From positions 1 through 64,000 of the forward strand of contig CABYFY010000001.1 of NCBI GenBank assembly GCA_902518355.1: a stretch of DNA of 64,000 nt, written 5' to 3'. The notes under the pieces are model-generated. The model made no database searches, had not been told where the DNA came from, and worked only from the letters and a program-made list of their open reading frames with translations. This DNA comes from an uncultured Bacteroidota bacterium. GTDB taxonomy: Bacteria > Bacteroidota > Bacteroidia > Flavobacteriales > Flavobacteriaceae. Below, one piece after another: positions 19,582 to 31,385 of the stretch; position 1 is the stretch's first letter, and the number at the start of each line of letters is the position of its first letter. A program made the translations under genes and the position numbers.

Positions 19582-21090
19582 ATGCTAAAAAAAGTAGCTA
19601 TAAAAATCATGGCTAGGCTTACAAAAAGCCAGGTTGACAGGTGGGCGTCAAACCCTATTGAAACTCAGAAAAAGCAATTGAACTATCTAATCAAAAACGC
19701 ATTGAATACATCATTTGGACAAGTGCATAGCTTCTCGAAAATAAAGAACTACGATGATTTCAAAAATCATATTCCAGTAAGAGATTATGAAGGCTTACGG
19801 GAATATTTTGAGCAGATAAAAGAAGGAAAGAAAAATGTATTGTGGCCTGGAAAACCTCTTTATCTTGCAGTCACTTCTGGAACAACCTCTGGCTCAAAAT
19901 ATATTCCAATAACTAAACAAAGTTTACCCAATCATCTTAACGGAGCTAAGATTGCCCTACTCATGTATGTTGCCGAAACGGGAAAAGTAGATTTTGTTAA
20001 TGGTAAGTTTATTTTTATTCAAGGCAGCCCAGTATTAAGTAAAATTTCAGGTATTTTAACGGGAAGGCTTTCGGGAATTTCTGCACACCACATCCCTTTT
20101 TATATGAAAAAAAACATGCTTCCATCATGGAGTACAAACATTATAGAGGAATGGGAGAATAAAATTGAATGCATTGTTAAAGAAACAATAGAGGCAAATA
20201 TGACAATTATTAGTGGAATTCCTTCATGGTTACAAATGTATTTTGAAAAAATAGTTGATAAAACAAATAAGAAAGTTTCAGAGACTTTCCCAAACTTTAA
20301 TCTTTTAGTTTATGGAGGAGTAAACTTCGATCCCTATAAAAATAAATTTAAAGAATTGATCGGCAAAGACATCGACAGTATTGAATTATTCCCCGCTAGT
20401 GAGGGTTTTTTTGCTTTTCAAGACAGTCAAGAAAAAAAAGATTTATTGTTGATCCTAAATGCAGGAATTTTTTATGAGTTTATTGATGTCGAGGATTTTC
20501 GAAACAACAAAATGCAAAGAATCCCTTTATGGGGAGTAAAAAAGGATAAAAATTATGTAATGATTATTTCTAGCTCCGCAGGCTTATGGGGGTATAACAC
20601 GGGGGATACTGTAAGATTTACAAGCTTAAGCCCTTACAAAATTGATGTTACTGGAAGAATCAAGCAAAGCCTATCTGCTTTTGGAGAACATGTAATAGTT
20701 AAAGAAGTCGAGCAGGCGATAGGGAATGCAATATCCAAAACAGGTTTTTTAGTTAAAGAATTTACTGTCGCTCCCAGATTTAAATCAAAGACATCATCGG
20801 CAAGCCATGAATGGTTTATCGAGTTTGATGTAATACAGGCTGACACTAAACAATTTGCTAATGAGATTGATAAAGAATTACAAAGACAAAATAAATATTA
20901 CAAAGATTTAATTGTTGGTAAAATTATTCAAAAACCAATAATAAGAAATGTTGTTAAGGACGGATTTAAAAAATACATGGATAGTATCGGAAAACTAGGA
21001 GGTCAAAACAAAATTCCAAAAATAGCAAACGATAGAAAGATAGCAAGCCAATTAAAAAACCTAAACCTTATTAAAAAAACCTCAAAATAA
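19582..21090 (+). CDS. GH3 auxin-responsive-promoter family acyl-adenylating protein
   Basis: Protein of 502 residues related to plant GH3 acyl-acid amido synthetases. The ATP/AMP-binding motif TSGTTSGSK is at residues 98-106; a second conserved block, YGGVNFDPYK (about 240-249), and the GEHVIVKE block near 370 follow the family order. In plants these conjugate amino acids to hormones; in Bacteroidota the substrate is unknown. It is coupled to the M23 peptidase gene (1-base gap), which suggests an envelope or lipid role. No plant-associated feature is implied. Confidence 0.85.
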   Translation: MLKKVAIKIMARLTKSQVDRWASNPIETQKKQLNYLIKNALNTSFGQVHSFSKIKNYDDFKNHIPVRDYEGLREYFEQIKEGKKNVLWPGKPLYLAVTSGTTSGSKYIPITKQSLPNHLNGAKIALLMYVAETGKVDFVNGKFIFIQGSPVLSKISGILTGRLSGISAHHIPFYMKKNMLPSWSTNIIEEWENKIECIVKETIEANMTIISGIPSWLQMYFEKIVDKTNKKVSETFPNFNLLVYGGVNFDPYKNKFKELIGKDIDSIELFPASEGFFAFQDSQEKKDLLLILNAGIFYEFIDVEDFRNNKMQRIPLWGVKKDKNYVMIISSSAGLWGYNTGDTVRFTSLSPYKIDVTGRIKQSLSAFGEHVIVKEVEQAIGNAISKTGFLVKEFTVAPRFKSKTSSASHEWFIEFDVIQADTKQFANEIDKELQRQNKYYKDLIVGKIIQKPIIRNVVKDGFKKYMDSIGKLGGQNKIPKIANDRKIASQLKNLNLIKKTSK

Positions 21091-21129: not shown

Positions 21130-22104
21130 ATGAAAAATAATTTTAAAGAAACCGAAGAGTTAGACATTATAGTTCTAATCGAGAAAATAAAGTTGATGCT
21201 TTTAAGTATCCTTCTTCAAATATTCAGAAGATCCAAAAATTTTTTATCAGAATGGAAGCGGCTATTAGCTGTAATACTTGTAGGAGTTTTACTTGGATAC
21301 TTTCTAACCGACAATGATAAACCATCATCAAAGGAAGCTACTGTATTGGTGAAGATAAATTTTGACGCAGGAAATTATGTCTATGACACAGTTGATCTTA
21401 TAAATCTTAAAATTTCAAGTGAAGACACTGATTTTTTTACCCAAGAAATAAAATTAAATGAAGACGAAACAATAGACGAGGTTTCTATATCTCCAGTAAT
21501 AGATATAAAGGATATTATGGCTAAAGATATTCAAGCTAATGAAATAAGAGCGCTCTTTGAAAACCTTGAATATGAAGATGGGTTTTCAGTAACTGAGGGC
21601 TTTAAATCAGATTATGACTACCATTTTATCAAAGTAAATGTTTCAAACAATTCATCAATTGAAACTATAAATAAAGTCATAGATTATTTTAACAACAATC
21701 CATTATTTGCTGAACTTAAAGAAAGAAATCTCCAAAGAATTTCAAGTATTATTTCAGACAACGAACAAACAATTAAACAAATTGACAGACTTCTCGACTA
21801 CTATACAACCGAAACTTCTGCCAATAATTCTCAGTTATATATTGACAATAAAAATTTGAGCCCTAATGAACTTATTAAAACAAAAATCACTCTTCAAAGC
21901 GAAAACCAAGAGTTAAAGAGAGAAAGTCTAACTTCAAAGCAAACAGTCATAACAATTAATGAATCAAATGTGTTAATTGAAAATAATTCACTTGCCTCAA
22001 ATAAAATGGTGTATTACCCATTTTTATTTTTACTTATTTACTTTATTGTTTCTGTTTTAATTGGACTTTACTCCTATCTTGATAAATTAGATAGAGCTAG
22101 CTAA
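21130..22104 (+). CDS. Unrecognised two-TM coiled-coil protein, Wzz-like topology
   Basis: I do not recognise a family. The 324 residues show a cytoplasmic N terminus, a transmembrane helix at about 44-60, a large middle region with charged helical stretches (about 190-260, likely coiled coil) and a C-terminal transmembrane helix at about 292-316. This resembles polysaccharide co-polymerases (Wzz/PCP), which set chain length, and the gene is first in a polysaccharide cluster, 1 base before the flippase gene. The classical Pro/Gly-rich Wzz motif before the second helix is not evident (MVYYPFLFLL only loosely resembles it). A chain-length role is inference. Confidence 0.5.
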   Translation: MKNNFKETEELDIIVLIEKIKLMLLSILLQIFRRSKNFLSEWKRLLAVILVGVLLGYFLTDNDKPSSKEATVLVKINFDAGNYVYDTVDLINLKISSEDTDFFTQEIKLNEDETIDEVSISPVIDIKDIMAKDIQANEIRALFENLEYEDGFSVTEGFKSDYDYHFIKVNVSNNSSIETINKVIDYFNNNPLFAELKERNLQRISSIISDNEQTIKQIDRLLDYYTTETSANNSQLYIDNKNLSPNELIKTKITLQSENQELKRESLTSKQTVITINESNVLIENNSLASNKMVYYPFLFLLIYFIVSVLIGLYSYLDKLDRAS

Positions 22105-22105
22105 G

Positions 22106-23389
22106 ATGTCAATAAAAGACCTTACACAAAAGAGTTTTTCGGTTCTAATAATCAGGTCTTTTGGTGTGCTGCTTTTATTTGGGCTTACCATGTTCCTAAC
22201 AAACTTTTATTCTCCCGAAAATGTTGGTCGCTACGACTTTGTAAGATCTACAATAATGGTATTAGGAGGGCTTACTCTGATGGGAACAAACCAGTCAATT
22301 ATTTATTATTCAGGACTTTTAAAAGCTAGAAAAAGTATAGAGTCAATTAGGATAATATATTTTAAGATGCTAAGAATAATTTTTCTCTTAAGCCTTATTG
22401 TTTTAAGTCTTTTCATTGTTCTTTTTAACGAGTCAATTATAAATGAAGTTTTTAAAAGTTCTGATTCCTTTTCACTAATGCAAAAATCTATATTAGCATT
22501 ATTTTTCTTCTCCCTTACAATGTTAAATATTGACACAATTAGGTCATTGAATAAAACTATACTATCTGAGATGTATAGAAGTTTATTCAGATATTTACCG
22601 GTCTTAGTATTTGCAATTATTTTATTACTTACTAATAATGAGCATTTGTTAGTTGAAGTATATTTATCAGGTTTTTTATTATTGTCATTTTTATCAAGCT
22701 TTCGGGTTTACAAGCTATTTAATGCCCTTGAAAAGCCCAATAAAAATTTAGAAATATTTAGTACGATAGAGATTTTTAAAACATCCTTTCCTATGGCTCT
22801 TAGTGCAATCGCATATTTTATAATGCAAAGCATAGATATTATTATTTTATCAATTTATGAGGGGTTTGATCAAATTGCGTACTATTCTGTTTCTGTGAAA
22901 CTAGCAATGGTAACTACACTTGCATTAATGTCTGTCAACATTGTAATTGCACCAAGAATTGCTGAAATATATGAGAAGAAAGAATTTCAAAGCTTACAAC
23001 AACTTATCAAACATTCAACAAGGATTATTTTTTTGATAAGTATTTGTGTATTAAGCATTCTCTTTTTCTTTTCTGAAGAAATATTACAATTATTCGGAGA
23101 AGGGTATGTTTTTGCAAAAAATGCTTTGATTTTTCTATTAGCAGCCCAGTTTTTTAATTCCGTGTCAGGGCCAGGAGCCATATATCTAAATATGACAGGT
23201 CGTCAAAAAACTTTAAATAAAATATTGATTACTGGACTAGCCATTAATATAGCATTAAACTTTTATCTGATCCCAACTCACGGAATTAATGGCGCAGCAA
23301 TGGCTACTTTGATTAGTCTTATTATATGGAATTCAATTACAACTTTACTTATATTTTCGAAGGATAAAATCAGGATATTTCTGAATTAA
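22106..23389 (+). CDS. Wzx-type polysaccharide flippase (MATE/MOP superfamily)
   Basis: Integral membrane protein of 427 residues with roughly 12 hydrophobic helices and the polysaccharide-synthesis (Polysacc_synt) pattern: an N-terminal FGVLLLFGLTMFLTNFYSPE and a mid-protein FPMALSAIAYFIM block. It should flip lipid-linked oligosaccharide repeat units across the inner membrane. It lies between the Wzz-like protein and the sulfotransferase, with a 1-base gap on each side. A second flippase is at 42799-44262. Confidence 0.85.
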   Translation: MSIKDLTQKSFSVLIIRSFGVLLLFGLTMFLTNFYSPENVGRYDFVRSTIMVLGGLTLMGTNQSIIYYSGLLKARKSIESIRIIYFKMLRIIFLLSLIVLSLFIVLFNESIINEVFKSSDSFSLMQKSILALFFFSLTMLNIDTIRSLNKTILSEMYRSLFRYLPVLVFAIILLLTNNEHLLVEVYLSGFLLLSFLSSFRVYKLFNALEKPNKNLEIFSTIEIFKTSFPMALSAIAYFIMQSIDIIILSIYEGFDQIAYYSVSVKLAMVTTLALMSVNIVIAPRIAEIYEKKEFQSLQQLIKHSTRIIFLISICVLSILFFFSEEILQLFGEGYVFAKNALIFLLAAQFFNSVSGPGAIYLNMTGRQKTLNKILITGLAINIALNFYLIPTHGINGAAMATLISLIIWNSITTLLIFSKDKIRIFLN

Positions 23390-23390
23390 T

Positions 23391-24290
23391 ATGAAAAAAC
23401 CAAATTTCATTATAGCAGGATTTCCAAAGTGTGGCACCACCTCGCTTCATCATTATTTAGGTGAACATCCTGAGATTTATATGCCCGCTCAAAAAGAGCT
23501 ACATTTTTTCACCTGTGATATTCTCTCCAAACTTAATAAGGGGCCTAAGGATATTATTGTAAAAAAAACACAAATTAATAGTTCAGAAAAGTATTTGAAT
23601 TTCTATAAGAGCATAAGAAATGAGATTGCAATTGGAGATGCCTCACCTTCATATATTAATTATCCAAGTCAATTTAAAAAAATTAAAGAGTATTTAAATG
23701 ACCCCAAGGTTATAGTAATTTTAAGAGATCCGATTGATCGAGCATATTCTAACTATTTACATTTGAAAAGAGAGCATAGGGAAACCCTCACTTTCGAAGA
23801 AGCCATTTTCAAGGAAGATGAAAGAAAAACAAATAAATATTCAGATTTCTGGTATTATAAATTTAATTCGACTTATTATGATAAAATAATTAAGGTTAAA
23901 GAAACCTTTAGTAACGTGTTAATTTTAACCAGTGAGGAACTCAGCAATAACGGAGATGCTACATTGAAAAAAGTGTATAAATTTTTAGAGGTTAACGACA
24001 CCTTTAAGTTGAAGAGAAAATTTAATAACTTTAATAAAGGAGGACATTTCAAAGAAAATATTTTCACTAAAATAATTTTTCAACCATCAACGTTAAAAAA
24101 CACAATTAAAAAGTTTATTAAGCCTACGCCTTTTTTAAAAATTATAATATCCAAAATAGCCAATATTTTTAGTAAAAAGCCAAAAAAAATAGATGCAGAA
24201 TCGTTAAAATATTTAAAAAAATATTTCAAAAAAGAAGTTGAAAAGCTTGAAACATTAAATATTGATACTTCTAAATGGAGAGACTATTAA
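23391..24290 (+). CDS. PAPS-dependent sulfotransferase
   Basis: Sulfotransferase-family protein of 299 residues. The 5'-phosphosulfate loop is GFPKCGTTSL (residues 10-19) and the 3'-phosphate binding motif is VILRDPIDRAYSNY (109-122, Arg112 and Ser120). It should transfer sulfate from PAPS to a hydroxyl, most likely on a sugar of the polysaccharide made by this cluster; that acceptor is inferred from context. The basic C-terminal tail resembles the heparan/carbohydrate sulfotransferase style (Sulfotransfer_1/3), not aryl sulfotransferases. The polymerase gene starts 2 bases downstream. Confidence 0.88.
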   Translation: MKKPNFIIAGFPKCGTTSLHHYLGEHPEIYMPAQKELHFFTCDILSKLNKGPKDIIVKKTQINSSEKYLNFYKSIRNEIAIGDASPSYINYPSQFKKIKEYLNDPKVIVILRDPIDRAYSNYLHLKREHRETLTFEEAIFKEDERKTNKYSDFWYYKFNSTYYDKIIKVKETFSNVLILTSEELSNNGDATLKKVYKFLEVNDTFKLKRKFNNFNKGGHFKENIFTKIIFQPSTLKNTIKKFIKPTPFLKIIISKIANIFSKKPKKIDAESLKYLKKYFKKEVEKLETLNIDTSKWRDY

Positions 24291-24292
24291 CA

Positions 24293-25666
24293 ATGAGATT
24301 AATAACAATCAAAAATATAATCATACCCACATTGCTGCTTGGAATATTTTTTATTCCGTTTAATTCATGGTCCGGTATTGGTTTTTTAGGCGAATATTAT
24401 AGAGACTCCTGTTTCTTGTTTTTCTCTTTTGCTTTTGTTCTGGTACTTTTCAAAAGAAGAATCAACATCCCTATAAAAAATTTAATTTTTCAATTTTTAA
24501 TTCTCTTTATACTCTGGTCTATTTTAGCAACTTTGTTTAACGCTCACAATATAGCTGATTATTACTTTAAACAAACTTCAGGATTGTCAAGATTTATAAA
24601 CCAATTTGGCTCGCTCATTATTGCATCAATTATAATCCCGTTAACTTTTTATAACGGTTTTAAGTGGATTAACATTAACAAGACTTTTAGGTTGATCAGA
24701 AGAGTAGTTTTAGCGTCTTTAATTATTGTATTAATGTATTCAATAATTGAGATTTTAATAGTGAAGTTTGATATGGTCAATTTAAAAAAACCAATATTAA
24801 ATCTCTTTGACTATTTTCCGTTCACGGAAGCAAAAACTGACATGAGACTCAGAAGAATTTCATCAGTAACTTTTGAACCCCCAGCTCTGGGCACTTATTT
24901 ATTATCAATTGCAGGTTGGATGTTTAGCTATATTTTCACTGAGAAGAAAAATTTTAAATATCTTCCTATAGTAATTGTTTTGTTTTTAGGTTTTATGTCC
25001 GGATCCAGGGCTGCATTTTTTGCAATAATAATTCAATTTATTATTGCATCAATAATCTTCTTAAAAAACAAAAAATTAACTAGAAACATTTACAGAATAA
25101 TCATTGGATTTTCTACAGCTTCAATTTTAACCATTACTTATTTCAGTGAACCAATCTATAATTATATAAAAAAGGAGATAAACTCCTTCAAGTTAGATGA
25201 TTCAACACATTCCCTTTCTAACAAATCTAGATTTGGAATTCAGCAAGCCATGTTTTATGTATTTCTAGAAAACCCAATTTCAGGAACCGGATATGGCCTT
25301 CAAGCATTTGAATCAAGAAAAAAATATCCTACATGGGCTAAGAAAAATAATTGGGAATTTAGACTAAAATATTTAAACCAAAATGACAAAAGATTTCCTC
25401 CGGGATATAATATGTACTTAAGAATATTAAGTGAAACAGGGTTGGTCGGCTTTTTGTTTTTTGGATTAATGTTATTACAGATTTTTTTATGGTGTTTTAA
25501 TAATTTGAAATCTGAAAATTCAATAATCGCTTTTATTATATTGATATCTATGATAGGGTTTTCACTCAATTGGCTTAAAATGGACTCATTTAGAATTTAT
25601 TTTTTCTGGCTTTGTCTAGCTTTAATCTGGGTTGTTGAACAAAGAAAAATATCACAAAATGGATAA
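24293..25666 (+). CDS. O-antigen polymerase/ligase family protein (Wzy/WaaL-like), copy 1
   Basis: Polytopic membrane protein of 457 residues with about 11-12 hydrophobic helices and a large loop (about 290-380) between the last helices, carrying the Wzy_C style GYGLQAFE segment. Either polymerises repeat units or ligates chains to a lipid anchor. Start at ATG 24293, directly after the sulfotransferase stop; an upstream in-frame ATG at 24275 lies inside that gene. It overlaps the next gene by 8 bases. Confidence 0.75.
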   Translation: MRLITIKNIIIPTLLLGIFFIPFNSWSGIGFLGEYYRDSCFLFFSFAFVLVLFKRRINIPIKNLIFQFLILFILWSILATLFNAHNIADYYFKQTSGLSRFINQFGSLIIASIIIPLTFYNGFKWININKTFRLIRRVVLASLIIVLMYSIIEILIVKFDMVNLKKPILNLFDYFPFTEAKTDMRLRRISSVTFEPPALGTYLLSIAGWMFSYIFTEKKNFKYLPIVIVLFLGFMSGSRAAFFAIIIQFIIASIIFLKNKKLTRNIYRIIIGFSTASILTITYFSEPIYNYIKKEINSFKLDDSTHSLSNKSRFGIQQAMFYVFLENPISGTGYGLQAFESRKKYPTWAKKNNWEFRLKYLNQNDKRFPPGYNMYLRILSETGLVGFLFFGLMLLQIFLWCFNNLKSENSIIAFIILISMIGFSLNWLKMDSFRIYFFWLCLALIWVVEQRKISQNG

Positions 25667-26456
25667 AAAAATAATAATTACCATTCCCCATTATAATAAT
25701 CCAGCGGGATTAATTAATACTATATCATCAATTAATGATCCAATTAAAATCGACATAGTTATTACAGATGATGGAAGTGAAATTAAGCTTGATGAGCACC
25801 AAGTTAGATCGAAATATAACAACAAAGGAAACATACACTTTATATACTTAGACAAAAATTACGGAGTTGGTATTGCAGCTAATAAGTGTTTAGAATATGT
25901 TAAAAATAAGAGTTACAAATATGTAGCTAGACTTGATGCTGGAGATATTAGCTACAAAAACAAATTTTCAAAACAGATTGAGTTTTTAGAAAAAAACAAT
26001 CAAATTATGCTAGTCGGCACATGGGCGAGAGTGTTAGATAATGAAGGGAATTTATTGTTTTATATAAAACATCCAACTGATCATAACAATATTAAAAGAA
26101 AGATGTATTTAAACAGTATGTTTGTAAACCCAACAGTGTTATTTAAAACTTCAATCCTAGAAACTGTTTCTGAGTATCCTATAGAATATAAAGATGCAGC
26201 TCAAGACTATGCTTTTTTTTTCAAAGTAATTAAGCATTTTAAATGTGCAAATATTCCTGAGGTTTTGCTTGATTATATTATTGATAAAAATTCTATTTCA
26301 ACCAAAAAAAGAAAACTTCAAGTAAAGAATAGAATTAAAATTATAGCTGAAAACTTTAAGCTTGGTATTTATCCAATTTATGGATTACTTAGGAGTCTTG
26401 TGCTATATTTCTTCTCAAGAAGCTCAACAACTATTATTAAAAAGCGATTAAATTAA
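25659..26456 (+). CDS. Family 2 glycosyltransferase
   Basis: GT-A fold transferase of 265 residues. The N-terminal PHYNNPAG nucleotide-sugar strand, the TDDGSE motif (37-42) and the metal-binding DAGD (about 95-98) are present, as is a YKDAAQDYAFF block near residue 180. It should add one sugar to the lipid-linked repeat unit at the cytoplasmic face. Start is ATG 25659; an in-frame ATG 27 bases upstream gives an unlikely N terminus. Overlaps the preceding polymerase by 8 bases; the next gene starts 1 base after. Confidence 0.85.
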   Translation: MDKKIIITIPHYNNPAGLINTISSINDPIKIDIVITDDGSEIKLDEHQVRSKYNNKGNIHFIYLDKNYGVGIAANKCLEYVKNKSYKYVARLDAGDISYKNKFSKQIEFLEKNNQIMLVGTWARVLDNEGNLLFYIKHPTDHNNIKRKMYLNSMFVNPTVLFKTSILETVSEYPIEYKDAAQDYAFFFKVIKHFKCANIPEVLLDYIIDKNSISTKKRKLQVKNRIKIIAENFKLGIYPIYGLLRSLVLYFFSRSSTTIIKKRLN

Positions 26457-26457
26457 T

Positions 26458-27672
26458 ATGAATAACAAACTAGAAAAAACATATAATTATATAGGCTTTT
26501 TAATATGCCTTTCAATTCCATTTATGACATATGCAAAGGCTTTTGTGAATATATGTATGATTTGCTTGTTTCTAATTCTTGTTGTTTTACTAAATACGCA
26601 AAAAGCTTTAGAAATTATAAAGAACAATTTTTTTAAAACATTTTTGATATTTTTATTATTTGTAACCCTATTTACAGTTTTTAATTCTTCATTCTTTCTT
26701 GATTTTTCTGAAACGAGAAAAATAGCGCAAATTGCTCTTTTATTTATCTTATTTTCATTCGTTAATGATAAGCGCTTTTTGATTTATGGATTTATTTTAG
26801 GGGTCTTTATTAGCAGTCTCATAACAGGAATAAATATTATCAATTATTATTTAAATTCTTTTGAGCTATTGATATCAAAATCATCGATTGAAGATCTATT
26901 TATTACACAGAGGTTGTACCTTGGGTTTTTCATAGTAATTTCAGCTATATTACTTTTTAACATTTATCAAACTAGCATAAATAATGTTCAAAAATATTCA
27001 AGTCTTTTGCTGATTATATACTTTTTATTTGTGTTGTTTCTAATTTCATCTAGAAGCGCCTTGTTAATTGCAGTTGTAGTTTTTTTAACTACTATTATTC
27101 ATGAACTCAAACCTCAACATAGCTTTCTGTTAGTTGTAGGAGCTGTTTTAATTTTTTCTTCAATTATTTATACAAACAAAAATTTATCAAATAGATTCTT
27201 ATATTCTGAAGATTCGATTAGATCTTCTTTTATTGACAAGATAAAAACGCATGAGCCTAGATATGATATATGGAAGTTTTCGGGCCAAATATTTAAAGAG
27301 GAAAAACCGTATTTTTTTGGAATTGGTACATTCAAAACACAGGAATTATTGGTCTCCAAATATCAGCTAATGCCAATTGAAAAAAGAAAGAATTGGTTTA
27401 TAGAAAGGAATTTTAATACGCACAATCAGTATATTGACATTACCATTTCATACGGAATTATTGGTCTTTTAATTTTTTTAGTTTTCGTTAAGGAAACAGT
27501 CAAGTTTTCGTTAAAGAACATACATTCTTTGAATTTAGTTCTTAGTCTACTTTTATTTTTACTTGTCGAAAATATATTTCACAGGCAACTCGGTTCTTTC
27601 ATTTTTGCTCTAACTTTAGTTTTGGCTTTATTTTTAATCAAATCGAAAAATGAAAAAAATATTAATTGTTGA
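26458..27672 (+). CDS. O-antigen polymerase/ligase family protein (Wzy/WaaL-like), copy 2
   Basis: Polytopic membrane protein of 404 residues with about 10-12 helices and a Wzy_C-type region: a short loop with FGIGTFKTQELLV (about 282-294) and NTHNQYIDI (about 321-329), the HNxY signature of WaaL/Wzy ligases. Having two such proteins in one cluster suggests that one is the polymerase and the other a ligase attaching the chain to its anchor; copy 2 has the clearer ligase signature. Which is which is inference. It overlaps the following glycosyltransferase by 23 bases. Confidence 0.78.
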   Translation: MNNKLEKTYNYIGFLICLSIPFMTYAKAFVNICMICLFLILVVLLNTQKALEIIKNNFFKTFLIFLLFVTLFTVFNSSFFLDFSETRKIAQIALLFILFSFVNDKRFLIYGFILGVFISSLITGINIINYYLNSFELLISKSSIEDLFITQRLYLGFFIVISAILLFNIYQTSINNVQKYSSLLLIIYFLFVLFLISSRSALLIAVVVFLTTIIHELKPQHSFLLVVGAVLIFSSIIYTNKNLSNRFLYSEDSIRSSFIDKIKTHEPRYDIWKFSGQIFKEEKPYFFGIGTFKTQELLVSKYQLMPIEKRKNWFIERNFNTHNQYIDITISYGIIGLLIFLVFVKETVKFSLKNIHSLNLVLSLLLFLLVENIFHRQLGSFIFALTLVLALFLIKSKNEKNINC

Positions 27673-28732
27673 TTGGCTAGACAAGTATGGTGGTGCAGAA
27701 AGAGTTTTAACTGTTTTAAACAAACAGTTTGACTTTGATAAATGCTTCACTTTAATTAATATAATGTCTAGCAACGATCTCGATAGAGTTTTTAATGATA
27801 AAAAAATCAAGATTGTAGAATCCAATTTAAGGCTGGTTAGATCAGGTTTTAGGTATTTGTTTTTTTTATTCCCTTTTTTCATTTCTAGATTTAAGTCGGA
27901 TGACACTAATGCCCTCATAATCTCGTCTTCTTTTTCTGTTGCTAAAGGTTTTAAAAAGCAGAGCAATCAAACACATATTTGTTACTATCAGGCAAGAAAT
28001 CAAAGGTATATTTGGGATAAAGAAAACATATATTTTTCATGGTGGCAAAAAATCCTATTAGCTCCACTATTATATTTATTGCGTAAAATTGATGTTAAAC
28101 ATTCAGGAAGACCAGATTATATTATTGCAAATTCTTTGTTTGTAAAAGATTGGATTAAAAAAAACTACAACATAGAATCATCTGTTATATACCCGCCTGT
28201 TGACACAAAACTTTTTAAATTTCAAAAAAACAAACAAGATTACTTTATTACTACAGCTAGATTAGAACCATATAAACGGGTTGACTTACTGGTTAAGGCA
28301 TTTAATAAGACCGGAGATATATTATATGTGGTTGGCGATGGTTCCATGAAAAAAAGATTGAGGAAAACTGCAAAGCAAAACATTAAGTTTTTTGATTTTC
28401 TTGAGCCTAAAGAGGTTATGGAGTTGGTGAGTAAAGCAAAAGCTTTTGTTCATGCAGGAATAGAGGATTTTGGTATCGCACCGGTTGAGGCTCAATCATG
28501 TGGCACACCTGTCATTGCCTATAATTTAGGTGGACTTTCGGAAACAGTAATTGATGGAAAAACAGGAATACTTTTTAATTTTCAAACAACAGATGCAATT
28601 TTAGACGCATTAAAACGTTTTAAAAAAACTAAATTTAATCTGAGAAAAATAAGTGAACATGCAGAGCAGTTCTCTGAAGAAAGGTTCGCCCAAAACTTTC
28701 AGAATTTCATTGACTTGAAAATAAAACAATAA
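27650..28732 (+). CDS. Family 4 glycosyltransferase
   Basis: GT-B fold transferase of 360 residues. The N-terminal GGAERVL phosphate loop (about 14-20) and the GT4 signature ExxxxxxxE (EDFGIAPVE, Glu272-Glu280) are intact. Such enzymes use nucleotide sugars with retention of configuration. It acts in the cluster's repeat-unit assembly; donor unknown. It ends 9 bases before the priming transferase gene. Confidence 0.9.
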   Translation: MKKILIVDWLDKYGGAERVLTVLNKQFDFDKCFTLINIMSSNDLDRVFNDKKIKIVESNLRLVRSGFRYLFFLFPFFISRFKSDDTNALIISSSFSVAKGFKKQSNQTHICYYQARNQRYIWDKENIYFSWWQKILLAPLLYLLRKIDVKHSGRPDYIIANSLFVKDWIKKNYNIESSVIYPPVDTKLFKFQKNKQDYFITTARLEPYKRVDLLVKAFNKTGDILYVVGDGSMKKRLRKTAKQNIKFFDFLEPKEVMELVSKAKAFVHAGIEDFGIAPVEAQSCGTPVIAYNLGGLSETVIDGKTGILFNFQTTDAILDALKRFKKTKFNLRKISEHAEQFSEERFAQNFQNFIDLKIKQ

Positions 28733-28741
28733 AATTACCTT

Positions 28742-30100
28742 ATGGTAAAAAAGTACGCAGGGAGATATTCAAAATATTTAAGGCCAATTTCTATTTTTTT
28801 TGATTTATTAGTGCTGAATTCTTTTGTCTATTTATACTTAGGTAAGGAGTTGATTCAACCTGTTATAATTGCTGTATTTTCTTTTCTTTGGATCATTTCA
28901 GCGTTAATAACTAAGTTTTACGAAGTCTACAGGTTTACAAAATTTATAAAAATTGTCTCATATGTTTTCTACCAACTATTACTGTTTTCAATTTTTGTAT
29001 TTGCATTTTTTGGTGTGGCAGAAACTCTAAACCCTGGCTTGTCAAAAACCTTAATTTTTCTATTATATACTTTTCTCCTCGTATCCCTGTTTAAGTTTAC
29101 CCTTTTTTATGGATTACAAAGTTATAGGCTGGGTTTTGGCGGCAACTTTAGAAAGACGATAATTATTGGCAATGATGAATCTGTTGAGGAGCTAAAAGAA
29201 TTTTTTATCACCCAAAAGGAGCTAGGTTATGAAAACAGAAAGACCTTTAGTTTCAAATCCCCTTCTGATTTAGATTTGCAAGAATGCTTTGATTTTATTC
29301 TATCAAGGAATATTGATGAAGTTTATTGCTCTGCAAATGAACTTGAGGAAAATCAATTAAATCTTTTAATTGAATTCTGTGAAAATAATTTTAAAATCCT
29401 AAAATTTATTTCTAAAAGAGGAGGCTTACTTTCCAAAAAATTAAAAACTGACACATACGGGCTTTCAACAGTTCAGTCTTTAAGACAAATGCCTCTTTCA
29501 AATGATTACAACACCCTTGTAAAAAGATTTTTTGATATAGTTTTTTCATTATTTATTATTATGTTTTTTCTTTCATGGATTACTCCGATAATAGCTTTAT
29601 TGATAAAAATTGAAAGCAGTGGCCCAGTCTTTTTTAAACAAACTAGAAACGGAATTAAGTATAAAGAGTTTACGTGTTATAAGTTTAGATCAATGGTTGA
29701 AAATATTGACGCTGATATTCAACAGGCAACTAAAAACGATAAAAGAGTGACTAAGATTGGTAAGATTCTCAGGAAGACCAGCTTAGACGAACTACCACAA
29801 TTTTACAATGTATTAATTGGGAATATGTCAGTTGTAGGTCCAAGACCCCACATGATAAAAGAAAACGAAAGGTACTCAAAATCAGTAAACAAGTTTATGG
29901 TACGTCATTTTGTTAAACCAGGAATTACTGGATTAGCACAAGTGAAGGGATTTAGAGGTGAAATTGAAATAAATGAGGATATAATTAATAGAGTTAAGTT
30001 CGATATTTATTATTTAGAAAACTGGTCTTTAATCTTGGATTTAAATATTGTATTTTTGACTGCAATAAATTTTTTAACCGGCCATAAAAAGGCATACTAA
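28742..30100 (+). CDS. Polyprenyl glycosylphosphotransferase (initiating sugar-1-P transferase)
   Basis: Membrane enzyme of 452 residues that starts repeat-unit synthesis by moving a sugar-1-phosphate onto undecaprenyl phosphate. Four to five N-terminal helices (about 1-125), a cytoplasmic region, then the bacterial sugar transferase domain (about 258-452): membrane segment VKRFFDIVFSLFIIM, basic FKQTRNG, catalytic SLDELPQ at about 347-353, GPRP near 366, and PGITGLAQVKG. WcaJ/WbaP-like. It is last in the polysaccharide cluster and purD begins 13 bases downstream. Confidence 0.92.
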   Translation: MVKKYAGRYSKYLRPISIFFDLLVLNSFVYLYLGKELIQPVIIAVFSFLWIISALITKFYEVYRFTKFIKIVSYVFYQLLLFSIFVFAFFGVAETLNPGLSKTLIFLLYTFLLVSLFKFTLFYGLQSYRLGFGGNFRKTIIIGNDESVEELKEFFITQKELGYENRKTFSFKSPSDLDLQECFDFILSRNIDEVYCSANELEENQLNLLIEFCENNFKILKFISKRGGLLSKKLKTDTYGLSTVQSLRQMPLSNDYNTLVKRFFDIVFSLFIIMFFLSWITPIIALLIKIESSGPVFFKQTRNGIKYKEFTCYKFRSMVENIDADIQQATKNDKRVTKIGKILRKTSLDELPQFYNVLIGNMSVVGPRPHMIKENERYSKSVNKFMVRHFVKPGITGLAQVKGFRGEIEINEDIINRVKFDIYYLENWSLILDLNIVFLTAINFLTGHKKAY

Positions 30101-30113
30101 ATTTTAGTTCACA

Positions 30114-31385
30114 ATGAATATAATGATATTAGGCTCAGGTGGAAGAGAGCATGCTTTTGCGTATAAAATTAAGCAAAGCACGCTGTGTAAAAATTTATAC
30201 GTAGCCCCAGGAAACTCGGGTACAAGTGAGATAGCGACTAATCTTGAAATTCAGGTTAATCAATTTGAGCTTATTGCAGACGCGATTCAAAAATATATTA
30301 TTTCGATGGTCATTGTTGGGCCTGAAGTACCATTAGTTAATGGCCTAAATGATTACATAAAAAGTCACAAAAAATTAAGTAATGTAATAGTAATTGGACC
30401 AAACCAACACGCATCTCAGCTTGAAGGAAGTAAAGATTTTGCTAAAGATTTTTTAAATCGTCATAATATTCCAACAGCTGCACACAAAACATTTACGGCC
30501 CAAACAATTGATGATGCATTTTTATATATTGATTCAATGCCTGCGCCATATGTTTTAAAGGCTGATGGTCTTGCAGCTGGTAAGGGTGTGCTAATTATTG
30601 ATGATCCTAATGAAGCCAAAAATGAGCTGAATGAAATGTTGACAAAATCCAAATTTGGAGACGCTGGAAATAGTGTAGTTATAGAGGAATTCCTTGACGG
30701 AATTGAATTAAGTTGTTTCGCTTTAACAGATGGAAAAGATTATAAATTATTGCCAAGTGCAAAAGATTATAAAAGAATCGGAGAAGGCGATACAGGGCTT
30801 AATACTGGCGGAATGGGCGCAGTTTCTCCCCCCACATTTTTAACACAAGACTTTTTTAATAAGATTGAAAAAAAAGTAATTAAGCCTACTATTGACGGAC
30901 TTAAAAATGATAATATAGATTATCAAGGGTTTTTATTTTTTGGACTAATTAAAGTTAAAGAGGAGCCATATGTAATCGAGTACAACGTTAGAATGGGAGA
31001 TCCAGAATCTGAAGTTGTTTTGCCTAGAATAAAATCTGACTTTTTAGAGCTTTTATTATCGGTAAGCAACGGTGAATTATCCAACCATCAAGTTGAAATT
31101 GATAGTCAACAAGCTGCCACAGTTTTTTTGGTTTCAGGAGGCTACCCTGAAAAATATGAAAAAGGCAAGGAAATTTTTGGACTGGATATAAAATCAGACT
31201 CTATATTATTTCATGCTGGAGCGAAATCCGAAAATGGAAAAATAAAGACAAATGGTGGTAGAGTCATCGCTATTACTTCAATGGCAGATTCTGTAAAAGA
31301 TGCCCTAGAGAAATCTTACGAAACGATTAAGAGTATAAAATTTGAAAAGATGAATTATAGAAAAGATATAGGCTTCGATTTATAA
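30114..31385 (+). CDS. purD: Phosphoribosylamine-glycine ligase (GAR synthetase)
   Basis: Purine biosynthesis: ATP + 5-phosphoribosylamine + glycine to GAR. ATP-grasp enzyme of 423 residues with the GGREHA motif near residues 10-15, KADGLAAGKGV (about 143-153), and the GDPESEVVLPR signature (about 288-298). It probably continues the polysaccharide transcript. It overlaps the convergent DUF6341 gene by 6 bases at the palindrome TTATAA. Confidence 0.96.
   Translation: MNIMILGSGGREHAFAYKIKQSTLCKNLYVAPGNSGTSEIATNLEIQVNQFELIADAIQKYIISMVIVGPEVPLVNGLNDYIKSHKKLSNVIVIGPNQHASQLEGSKDFAKDFLNRHNIPTAAHKTFTAQTIDDAFLYIDSMPAPYVLKADGLAAGKGVLIIDDPNEAKNELNEMLTKSKFGDAGNSVVIEEFLDGIELSCFALTDGKDYKLLPSAKDYKRIGEGDTGLNTGGMGAVSPPTFLTQDFFNKIEKKVIKPTIDGLKNDNIDYQGFLFFGLIKVKEEPYVIEYNVRMGDPESEVVLPRIKSDFLELLLSVSNGELSNHQVEIDSQQAATVFLVSGGYPEKYEKGKEIFGLDIKSDSILFHAGAKSENGKIKTNGGRVIAITSMADSVKDALEKSYETIKSIKFEKMNYRKDIGFDL

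Follow-up and report, generated by a model that had tools for sequence, protein, structure and literature searches.

Two capsular polysaccharide gene clusters are the closest described parallels to the locus analyzed here, an eight-gene cluster with a built-in sulfotransferase gene (positions 21130-30100) in a 64,000-nucleotide stretch of contig CABYFY010000001.1 from an uncultured member of the Flavobacteriaceae; this whole stretch is referred to below as the window. The cluster of Vibrio sp. KMM 8419, for which a polysaccharide structure has been reported, combines cysC, cysN and cysD, genes for the synthesis of 3'-phosphoadenosine 5'-phosphosulfate (PAPS), with sulfotransferase genes, and the joint presence of PAPS genes and sulfotransferases in a polysaccharide locus is described there as a hallmark of sulfated polysaccharide synthesis (PMC11641403). 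The cluster of Cobetia marina KMM 1449, likewise with a reported structure, contains sulfotransferases together with cysC, cysN, cysD and also cysQ (PMC11766843). The window cluster differs from both in that it consists of eight genes, is of the Wzx/Wzy type and Flavobacteriaceae-like, has its PAPS genes elsewhere in the genome, and is known from genes alone. The Vibrio and Cobetia loci reportedly comprise about 70-80 genes each, belong to Gammaproteobacteria and are served by ABC-transporter export.

The observed gene content and synteny, together with conserved motifs and co-occurring genes, point, with a probability that we put at roughly 70%, to a core locus for a sulfated surface polysaccharide, for which PAPS would be provided by CysDN and CysC in the window genome and by a candidate compact ATP sulfurylase in relatives. 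The cluster by itself most likely represents a further sulfated-polysaccharide locus, in a lineage that has received little study; what was not expected is how the relatives obtain their PAPS.

The sulfotransferase cluster, its conservation and its predicted product

A check of the open reading frames (ORFs) of the window confirmed the eight tightly packed genes of an earlier sequence-only reading: all are on the plus strand at the coordinates first described (Table 1), separated by gaps of 1, 1, 1 and 9 bases or overlapping by 16, 23 and 8 bases, the 8-base overlap becoming 35 bases if the gene for the family 2 glycosyltransferase (GT2) starts at TTG 25632 instead of ATG 25659. Family matches bear out the assignment to a Wzx/Wzy-type cluster with a PAPS-dependent sulfotransferase (SULT), given that an initiating transferase, a flippase, a Wzy-like polymerase and a co-polymerase, the last recognized by a modest structural match only, together make up a Wzx/Wzy-dependent gene set. 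SULT scores above the Pfam sulfotransferase cut-off with the PAPS-binding loop and the Arg/Ser site conserved, and matches the solved sulfotransferase 3rnl with 163 bits. In an alignment of 15 SULTs (14 from the genus and one from G034, a further genome of the family), the invariant positions include the GFPKCGTTSL loop (residues G10-C14), E36 in KELHFF, and both R112 and S120 in RDP..RAYSNY; the PAPS-site motifs are intact, with residue roles that we infer from the family.

The window genome, which is 79.7% complete, comprises 1.42 Mb on 27 contigs; the 20 congeneric genomes with which it was compared are 56-86% complete. Of these 20, 14 encode a SULT orthologue (57-91% identity). Neighbourhoods were fetched for 13 of the 14, and L068, whose match coordinates are identical, served for the remaining one (G015). 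The comparison of clusters in relatives, proposed along with the initial prediction, showed the order GH3, co-polymerase, Wzx, SULT, WzyA, GT2, WzyB, a glycosyltransferase and WcaJ in all 13 neighbourhoods, with purD flanking the cluster in 12 of them and the contig of the other ending before purD. A variable O-antigen island was rejected on account of the location of the block at a single housekeeping site in 13/13 neighbourhoods. Judging from these genomes, the cluster belongs to the core of this marine genus, being common to most of its genomes at one site, a constancy that the sequence-only reading had not anticipated. Outside the searched genus genomes, the full block occupies the GH3-purD site in L083, L084, L086, L089 and L092 (SULT identity 52-53%), and in L082 and L085 it is found at the same site interrupted by a contig end. 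The L085 contig, titled Acidimicrobiaceae bacterium NP20, holds a flavobacterial GH3-PCP-Wzx-SULT-WzyA-GT2 locus (PCP, polysaccharide co-polymerase) and is probably misplaced.

In G011 and G012, the slot of the family 4 glycosyltransferase (GT4) is filled by a 376-aa (amino acid) protein without BLAST similarity to the window GT4 (of the two, the one tested with Pfam is another GT4), and WzyB is only 41-42% identical to that of the window, compared with 61-87% for the other cluster genes except GT2, which is 47% identical in G011. In G015 (L068:3154), GT2 is 54% identical to its window counterpart and the other cluster genes on the contig are 88-97% identical, a pattern indicating that this GT2 is a recent single-gene swap. 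The frame of the cluster is thus fixed, and single sugar-adding steps are exchanged. The SULT-WzyA-GT2-WzyB module also stays together at other loci (L050, L087, L088, L090, L091 and L094). In G034 (L050), Winogradskyella (L087), Mangrovimonas (L088) and Formosa (L090), it is preceded on the same strand by cysQ, DUF2061, cysC, cysD and cysN, with 1.9-2.7 kb between the end of cysN and SULT; in L088, two other ORFs separate cysD from cysN. Cultured strains that carry the module include Mangrovimonas yunxiaonensis LY01 and Xanthomarina spongicola DSM 22637.

In the proposed scheme, which is predicted throughout (each enzymatic step, the acceptor, the stage at which sulfate is added and the placement on the surface), WcaJ would load a hexose-1-phosphate onto undecaprenyl phosphate, GT2 and GT4 would extend the lipid-linked sugar, SULT would sulfate the unit in the cytoplasm with PAPS as the donor, Wzx would flip it, and one Wzy-like protein would polymerise the units under the control of the co-polymerase, while the other may ligate the polymer to a carrier. 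The PAPS would come from CysDN and CysC in the window genome and, in many relatives, most likely from a lone adenosine 5'-phosphosulfate (APS) kinase and a compact NadM-like nucleotidyltransferase acting in the place of ATP sulfurylase. Two further claims made from the sequence alone stand in part. GT2 and GT4 are the only sugar-adding transferases in the cluster, as stated; the repeat of about three sugars deduced from this is not established, because enzymes of polysaccharide loci on two other contigs of the genome (C2 and C12) could contribute. The Wzz-like first gene encodes a protein (21130-22104) without a Pfam or NCBIfam family match, the model of which (pLDDT 75.5; long terminal helices and an alpha/beta middle) aligns over 230-232 residues with solved co-polymerases (6rbg, Z 7.7, root-mean-square deviation 9.4; 8tsh chain F, from the KpsMT-KpsE complex, Z 7.9, deviation 10.4) and with WzzE (8bhw) at Z 6.5. 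With a fit of this modest quality, and with equally high scores for short coiled-coil matches, a Wzz-like co-polymerase is likely, not proven.

Two variants of this reading concern the fate of the polymer. A sulfated O-antigen of lipopolysaccharide, with WzyB as the ligase and WzyA as the polymerase, falls just short of an even bet. The co-polymerase lacks a kinase domain, neither Wza nor Wzc is encoded in the cluster, and WzyB has HN at the motif position in 26/26 homologues (the complete motif in 22), a motif that we take to be the one common to WaaL ligases, with YN or FN at the corresponding position of WzyA in 28/28 homologues. WzyB is, however, the more divergent Wzy protein, its joint variation with GT4 in G011 and G012 is polymerase-like behaviour, and Wza/Wzc-like genes seem, by eye, to be present on C2. 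The latter genes, recognized by eye only, could alternatively export a secreted or capsular polysaccharide, a variant that we hold tentatively, at somewhat less than even odds. It is consistent with the WcaJ-type initiator of the exopolysaccharide subfamily, which exceeds the TIGR03025 cut-off of 296 bits and, with 391 bits, falls slightly below the cut-off of 411 for TIGR03023 (WcaJ), but fits poorly with a cluster that itself encodes a co-polymerase as well as two Wzy_C proteins, and with a C2 locus that seems by eye to own a flippase and a polytopic possible Wzy, the polytopic protein having no Pfam match. The GH3 and purD genes that flank the cluster are co-directional with it; therefore the transcript may extend beyond the eight genes.

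Table 1. Genes of the cluster, its neighbours and three nucleotidyltransferase loci (window positions unless a locus is named)
Feature	Position	Strand	Supporting match or context
GH3-family gene, left neighbour	19582..21090	+	GH3 128 bits; 39-base gap to cluster
Polysaccharide co-polymerase (Wzz/PCP-like), 324 aa	21130..22104	+	Predicted-structure match
Wzx-like flippase, 427 aa	22106..23389	+	Pfam MatE 58 bits; Polysacc_synt 28.2 bits, at cut-off
PAPS-dependent sulfotransferase (SULT), 299 aa	23391..24290	+	Pfam Sulfotransfer_3 55.5 bits; Sulfotransfer_1 49.5 bits
WzyA, Wzy_C family, 463 aa, YN/FN replacing HN motif	24275..25666	+	Wzy_C 58.5 bits
GT2 glycosyltransferase, start 25632 TTG or 25659 ATG	25632..26456	+	Glycos_transf_2 62.4 bits
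WzyB, Wzy_C family, 404 aa, HN motif present	26458..27672	+	Wzy_C 58.4 bits
GT4 glycosyltransferase, 360 aa	27650..28732	+	Glycos_transf_1 103 bits
Predicted initiating phosphoglycosyltransferase, WcaJ type, 452 aa	28742..30100	+	Bac_transf 223 bits; TIGR03025 356 bits
purD, right neighbour	30114..31385	+	TIGR00877 472 bits; 13-base gap to cluster
NadM-like nucleotidyltransferase	L056:7866-8318	-	Beside or fused to APS kinase
NadM-like nucleotidyltransferase	L126:4977-6023		Beside or fused to APS kinase
NadM-like nucleotidyltransferase	L133:7989-8843		Beside or fused to APS kinase

PAPS supply in the window genome and its relatives

The sequence-only reading had made its prediction depend on a PAPS pathway in the genome, to be sought through cysDN and cysC. 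These genes are present, in a run cysQ-cysN-cysD-cysC-DUF2061 on contig C2 (CysD at C2:114899, CysC at C2:115741), and in some relatives cys genes lie at most 3 kb from the SULT module. The C2 run sits in a larger polysaccharide locus that also holds the second of the three sulfotransferases of the window genome, which are distributed over three loci. This second sulfotransferase (L037:251-1135) is located beside two genes recognized by eye as asparagine synthase-like, and the third (L001:1444-2361, contig C12) is accompanied by flippase-like and GT4-like genes. The DUF2061 membrane protein (L037:12270-12704) recurs beside cysC in both the cysDN operons and the nucleotidyltransferase loci.

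No CysH was found in the window genome, where the sole PF01507 match is CysD, and neither CysH (PAPS reductase) nor sulfite reductase was found in any of the 21 genus genomes, all incomplete assemblies; eight more PF01507 matches in the genus, with a best stretch of at most 22.5 bits in frames of 389-450 aa, were taken to be other proteins of the superfamily. Assimilation as the use of PAPS was rejected on the strength of these absences from the 21 searched genomes. Because no sulfate-reducing enzymes were found, PAPS production appears to serve sulfation alone in this genus, and sulfate would be activated but not reduced; the sulfur for growth must derive from reduced compounds. Incompleteness of the genomes weakens each single absence, yet 21 consecutive absences are hard to attribute to random gaps.

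CysD was detected in only two of the 21 genus genomes (G000 and G017). APS kinase is encoded in 11 of the 20 relatives, in 10 of them by a lone gene at a different site, and in all 10 loci this lone CysC is adjoined by a 150-aa NadM-like nucleotidyltransferase, with a 132-aa nucleotidyltransferase intervening in five. The one copy of the lone CysC that was tested (L055) is an apsK equivalog (TIGR00455, 259 bits against a cut-off of 139). The 150-aa gene is present in 11 of the 21 genus genomes and, at E 1e-15, in one genome of a sample of 397 from the family, that one belonging to the same genus. Neither CysD nor Sat was found in the ten relatives with the CysC-nucleotidyltransferase pair, CysN not having been searched for in the genus. 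Sat (PF01747) was rejected as the missing sulfurylase, with no match in 37 genomes, 10 of which hold the pair. In the window genome, the site of the pair is without CysC and the 150-aa gene, and the latter is unmatched elsewhere in the genome; the 132-aa RfaE/TagD-like nucleotidyltransferase (L038:3581-3979) is kept at this site, where relatives have the lone cysC pair. CysD and the 150-aa protein never co-occur in the genus (2 and 11 of 21 genomes, respectively), a pattern that, by our own estimate, is not significant alone.

A candidate compact ATP sulfurylase in flavobacteria, phages and haloarchaea

The 150-aa protein belongs to a family of NadM-like proteins of 130-150 aa with the signature GRxQPxHxGH ... 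PD[IV]xxVxxGRxVGY ... S[AG]T, which, as the genomic contexts suggest, probably functions as a compact ATP sulfurylase that supplies sulfotransferases with PAPS, beside or fused to APS kinase, and replaces CysDN or Sat in marine flavobacteria, phages and haloarchaea. Relatives with 80-83% identity are encoded in IMG/VR contigs, in the order DUF2061, APS kinase, Sulfotransfer_2 and nucleotidyltransferase. The phage set consists of the best 80 of 112 relatives, on predicted phage contigs, and was reduced to 52 distinct loci by collapsing nucleotidyltransferases with a similarity ratio of at least 0.97. APS kinase is found in 51 of these 52 loci, within 2 kb and on the same strand in 50, and DUF2061 in 43; neither CysD nor CysN was found in the fetched flanks of the 80 loci. 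A sulfotransferase was detected in the fetched flank of 30 of the 52, a count of detections obtained with queries drawn partly from the counted set (six of the ten came from phage loci, five of these on contigs of that set), for which Fisher's test gives no clean probability. All six phage sulfotransferases sent to Pfam scored above a cut-off, as did six tested earlier. Kinase and nucleotidyltransferase form a fused ORF in five of the 52 loci (that of L178 includes only the end of the kinase); in L126-L128, the two make up a single 349-aa ORF, the start of which overlaps the end of a Sulfotransfer_3 gene.

A control set of the same size as the test set (514 kb), built on a different phage nucleotidyltransferase and comprising 57 distinct loci out of 80 kept, yielded APS kinase in two loci (E 1e-7 and 7e-12) and DUF2061 and sulfotransferase in none; in 10 of the 57, the 150-aa queries gave a match, probably to the nucleotidyltransferase on which the control is built. 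A chance neighbourhood of phage genes was rejected on this comparison, with APS kinase in 2/57 control loci against 50/52 within 2 kb. Among 14 distinct phage CysC loci (25, collapsed by eye), 11 have the nucleotidyltransferase, one has CysD and CysN, and two have neither. Stenotrophomonas phage DLP_6 and Xanthomonas phage AhaSv encode divergent fusions with both parts kept; none of their tested neighbours scores above a sulfotransferase cut-off, one near AhaSv reaching 19.6 bits against 22.8. In other phage loci, a HAD-like domain is fused behind the APS kinase (L099:3035-4204, L114:5577-5957); at a guess, it could remove 3'-phosphoadenosine 5'-phosphate as a phosphatase replacing CysQ.

In haloarchaeal plasmids, a 407-aa sulfotransferase is followed downstream by the fusion of APS kinase and nucleotidyltransferase in 9/9 records holding at least 80% of the domain, one of them unannotated and recognized by similarity, with at most one small annotated ORF intervening. 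The hosts are Haladaptatus (3), Haloprofundus, Natrinema, Natronococcus (2), Halostagnicola and Halocatena. Pfam recognized both domains in the five fusions tested and the sulfotransferase in the two tested. A YqcI/YcgG gene is part of all nine groups (one by comparison), in eight behind the fusion and in Halocatena on the far side of the sulfotransferase. The nine loci are close relatives, their sulfotransferases being 78-89% identical to the first, and may represent one event.

The sole Pfam match of the 150-aa protein is CTP_transf_like; neither CysD (PF01507) nor Sat (PF01747) is matched, and the scores with the NadM models of NCBIfam stay below the cut-offs (50 bits against 127; 43 against 181). 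Its structural model resembles phosphopantetheine adenylyltransferase (PPAT) and nicotinamide mononucleotide adenylyltransferase (NMNAT) at Z 5-7 only; Sat is not among the 50 best matches listed, which excludes nothing. The family shares the GRxQPxHxGH, NPFT and S[AG]T motifs and a similar predicted fold with a haloarchaeal NadM, and differs from it in having GRxVGY for W-V-x-H (W-V-S-H in the haloarchaeal NadM compared), about 25 residues fewer before S[AG]T, and APS kinase as its partner. GRxVG[YFH] and HxGH are present in 52/52 distinct phage members, and GRxVGY in the nine haloarchaeal members (GRNVGY in Halostagnicola) and the distant DLP_6 fusion (GRDVGY). The segment replaced by GRxVGY is presumably where NadM has its pocket for nicotinamide mononucleotide (NMN); we infer that a small anionic acceptor such as sulfate would fit, because the NMN-site segment is lost and a new invariant arginine is present, in a region where the model is uncertain (pLDDT below 50 at residues 93-98).

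It seems to us rather unlikely that the nucleotidyltransferase is not a sulfurylase and instead forms a different adenylylated product, similar to NAD or dephospho-CoA, which then receives a 3' phosphate from the CysC-like kinase, as PPAT followed by a 3' kinase yields CoA. The resemblance to NadM, PPAT and NMNAT would suit such a product, and the APS kinase match is weak for some of the phage kinases at these loci (28-69 bits). The lone genus kinase tested is, however, a full apsK equivalog, sulfotransferases and DUF2061 recur at the phage pairs and a sulfotransferase at the haloarchaeal fusions, CysD and CysN are missing from the phage flanks, and the NMN-site segment of NadM is absent. The family is thus a candidate compact ATP sulfurylase, and its fusion with APS kinase a candidate miniature PAPS synthetase.

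Several observations weigh against the overall interpretation. The four sulfotransferase queries from outside the phage set match in only 10 of the 52 phage loci. Eight genus genomes with the SULT cluster have the lone CysC and nucleotidyltransferase, with CysD undetected; should the nucleotidyltransferase prove to be some other enzyme, the source of PAPS in those eight would lack an explanation. Six more relatives with a SULT orthologue have fewer PAPS genes or none: G017 has CysD and CysC, and APS kinase is unmatched in G005, G009, G013, G014 and G020. The fetched flanks of module loci L093, L094 and L095 hold no cys gene, and the genus genomes are incomplete, so that missing cysH, sulfite reductase and cysD are no proof. 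With no Wza or Wzc in the cluster, the routes of export and anchoring are conjectural, and the acceptor of SULT could be a lipid or another glycan, the polysaccharide product being predicted. Although sulfotransferases of the SULT fold accept many substrates and the GH3 neighbour is distantly similar to OlsH, a lyso-ornithine lipid synthetase (384 bits, with the cut-off at 620), it is improbable that a lipid or small molecule is the substrate of SULT and that its place in the polysaccharide operon is a coincidence, given that SULT stays beside WzyA, GT2 and WzyB at other module loci and that its matches with named acceptors among solved structures are heparan sulfate sulfotransferases (20-30 bits, the highest being heparan sulfate 3-O-sulfotransferase 3A1 with 30).

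Comparison with known pathways and lineages

Among the genera of the NS5 marine group of flavobacteria, assimilatory sulfate reduction is reported for NS5_B alone, and the terms 'sulfotransferase' and 'exopolysaccharide' are absent from the main text of that report (PMC9122927). Both the NS5 group and the genus analyzed here are small-genome pelagic flavobacteria. Marine flavobacteria are familiar as degraders that feed on sulfated polysaccharides; the conserved cassette described here points to the production of sulfated glycans by small-genome members of this group and, if this is true, would add a bacterial marine source of such glycans.

The titles and abstract openings searched in the literature contain no account of this nucleotidyltransferase as a sulfurylase, and a term search of PMC11980604 gave no match. 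If the nucleotidyltransferase is an ATP sulfurylase, it would be an unnoticed third solution to a basic step of sulfur metabolism, present in bacteria, archaea and phages, and some genomes with a lone cysC would have been wrongly judged unable to make PAPS. Canonical PAPS synthesis relies on CysDN or Sat together with CysC, and in animals Sat and CysC are fused. The arrangement described here follows the same logic, with a predicted adenylyltransferase followed by APS kinase, the two adjoining or fused and located near sulfotransferases; the difference is that the adenylyltransferase would be a NadM-like protein of 130-150 aa and not a member of the CysD or Sat family.

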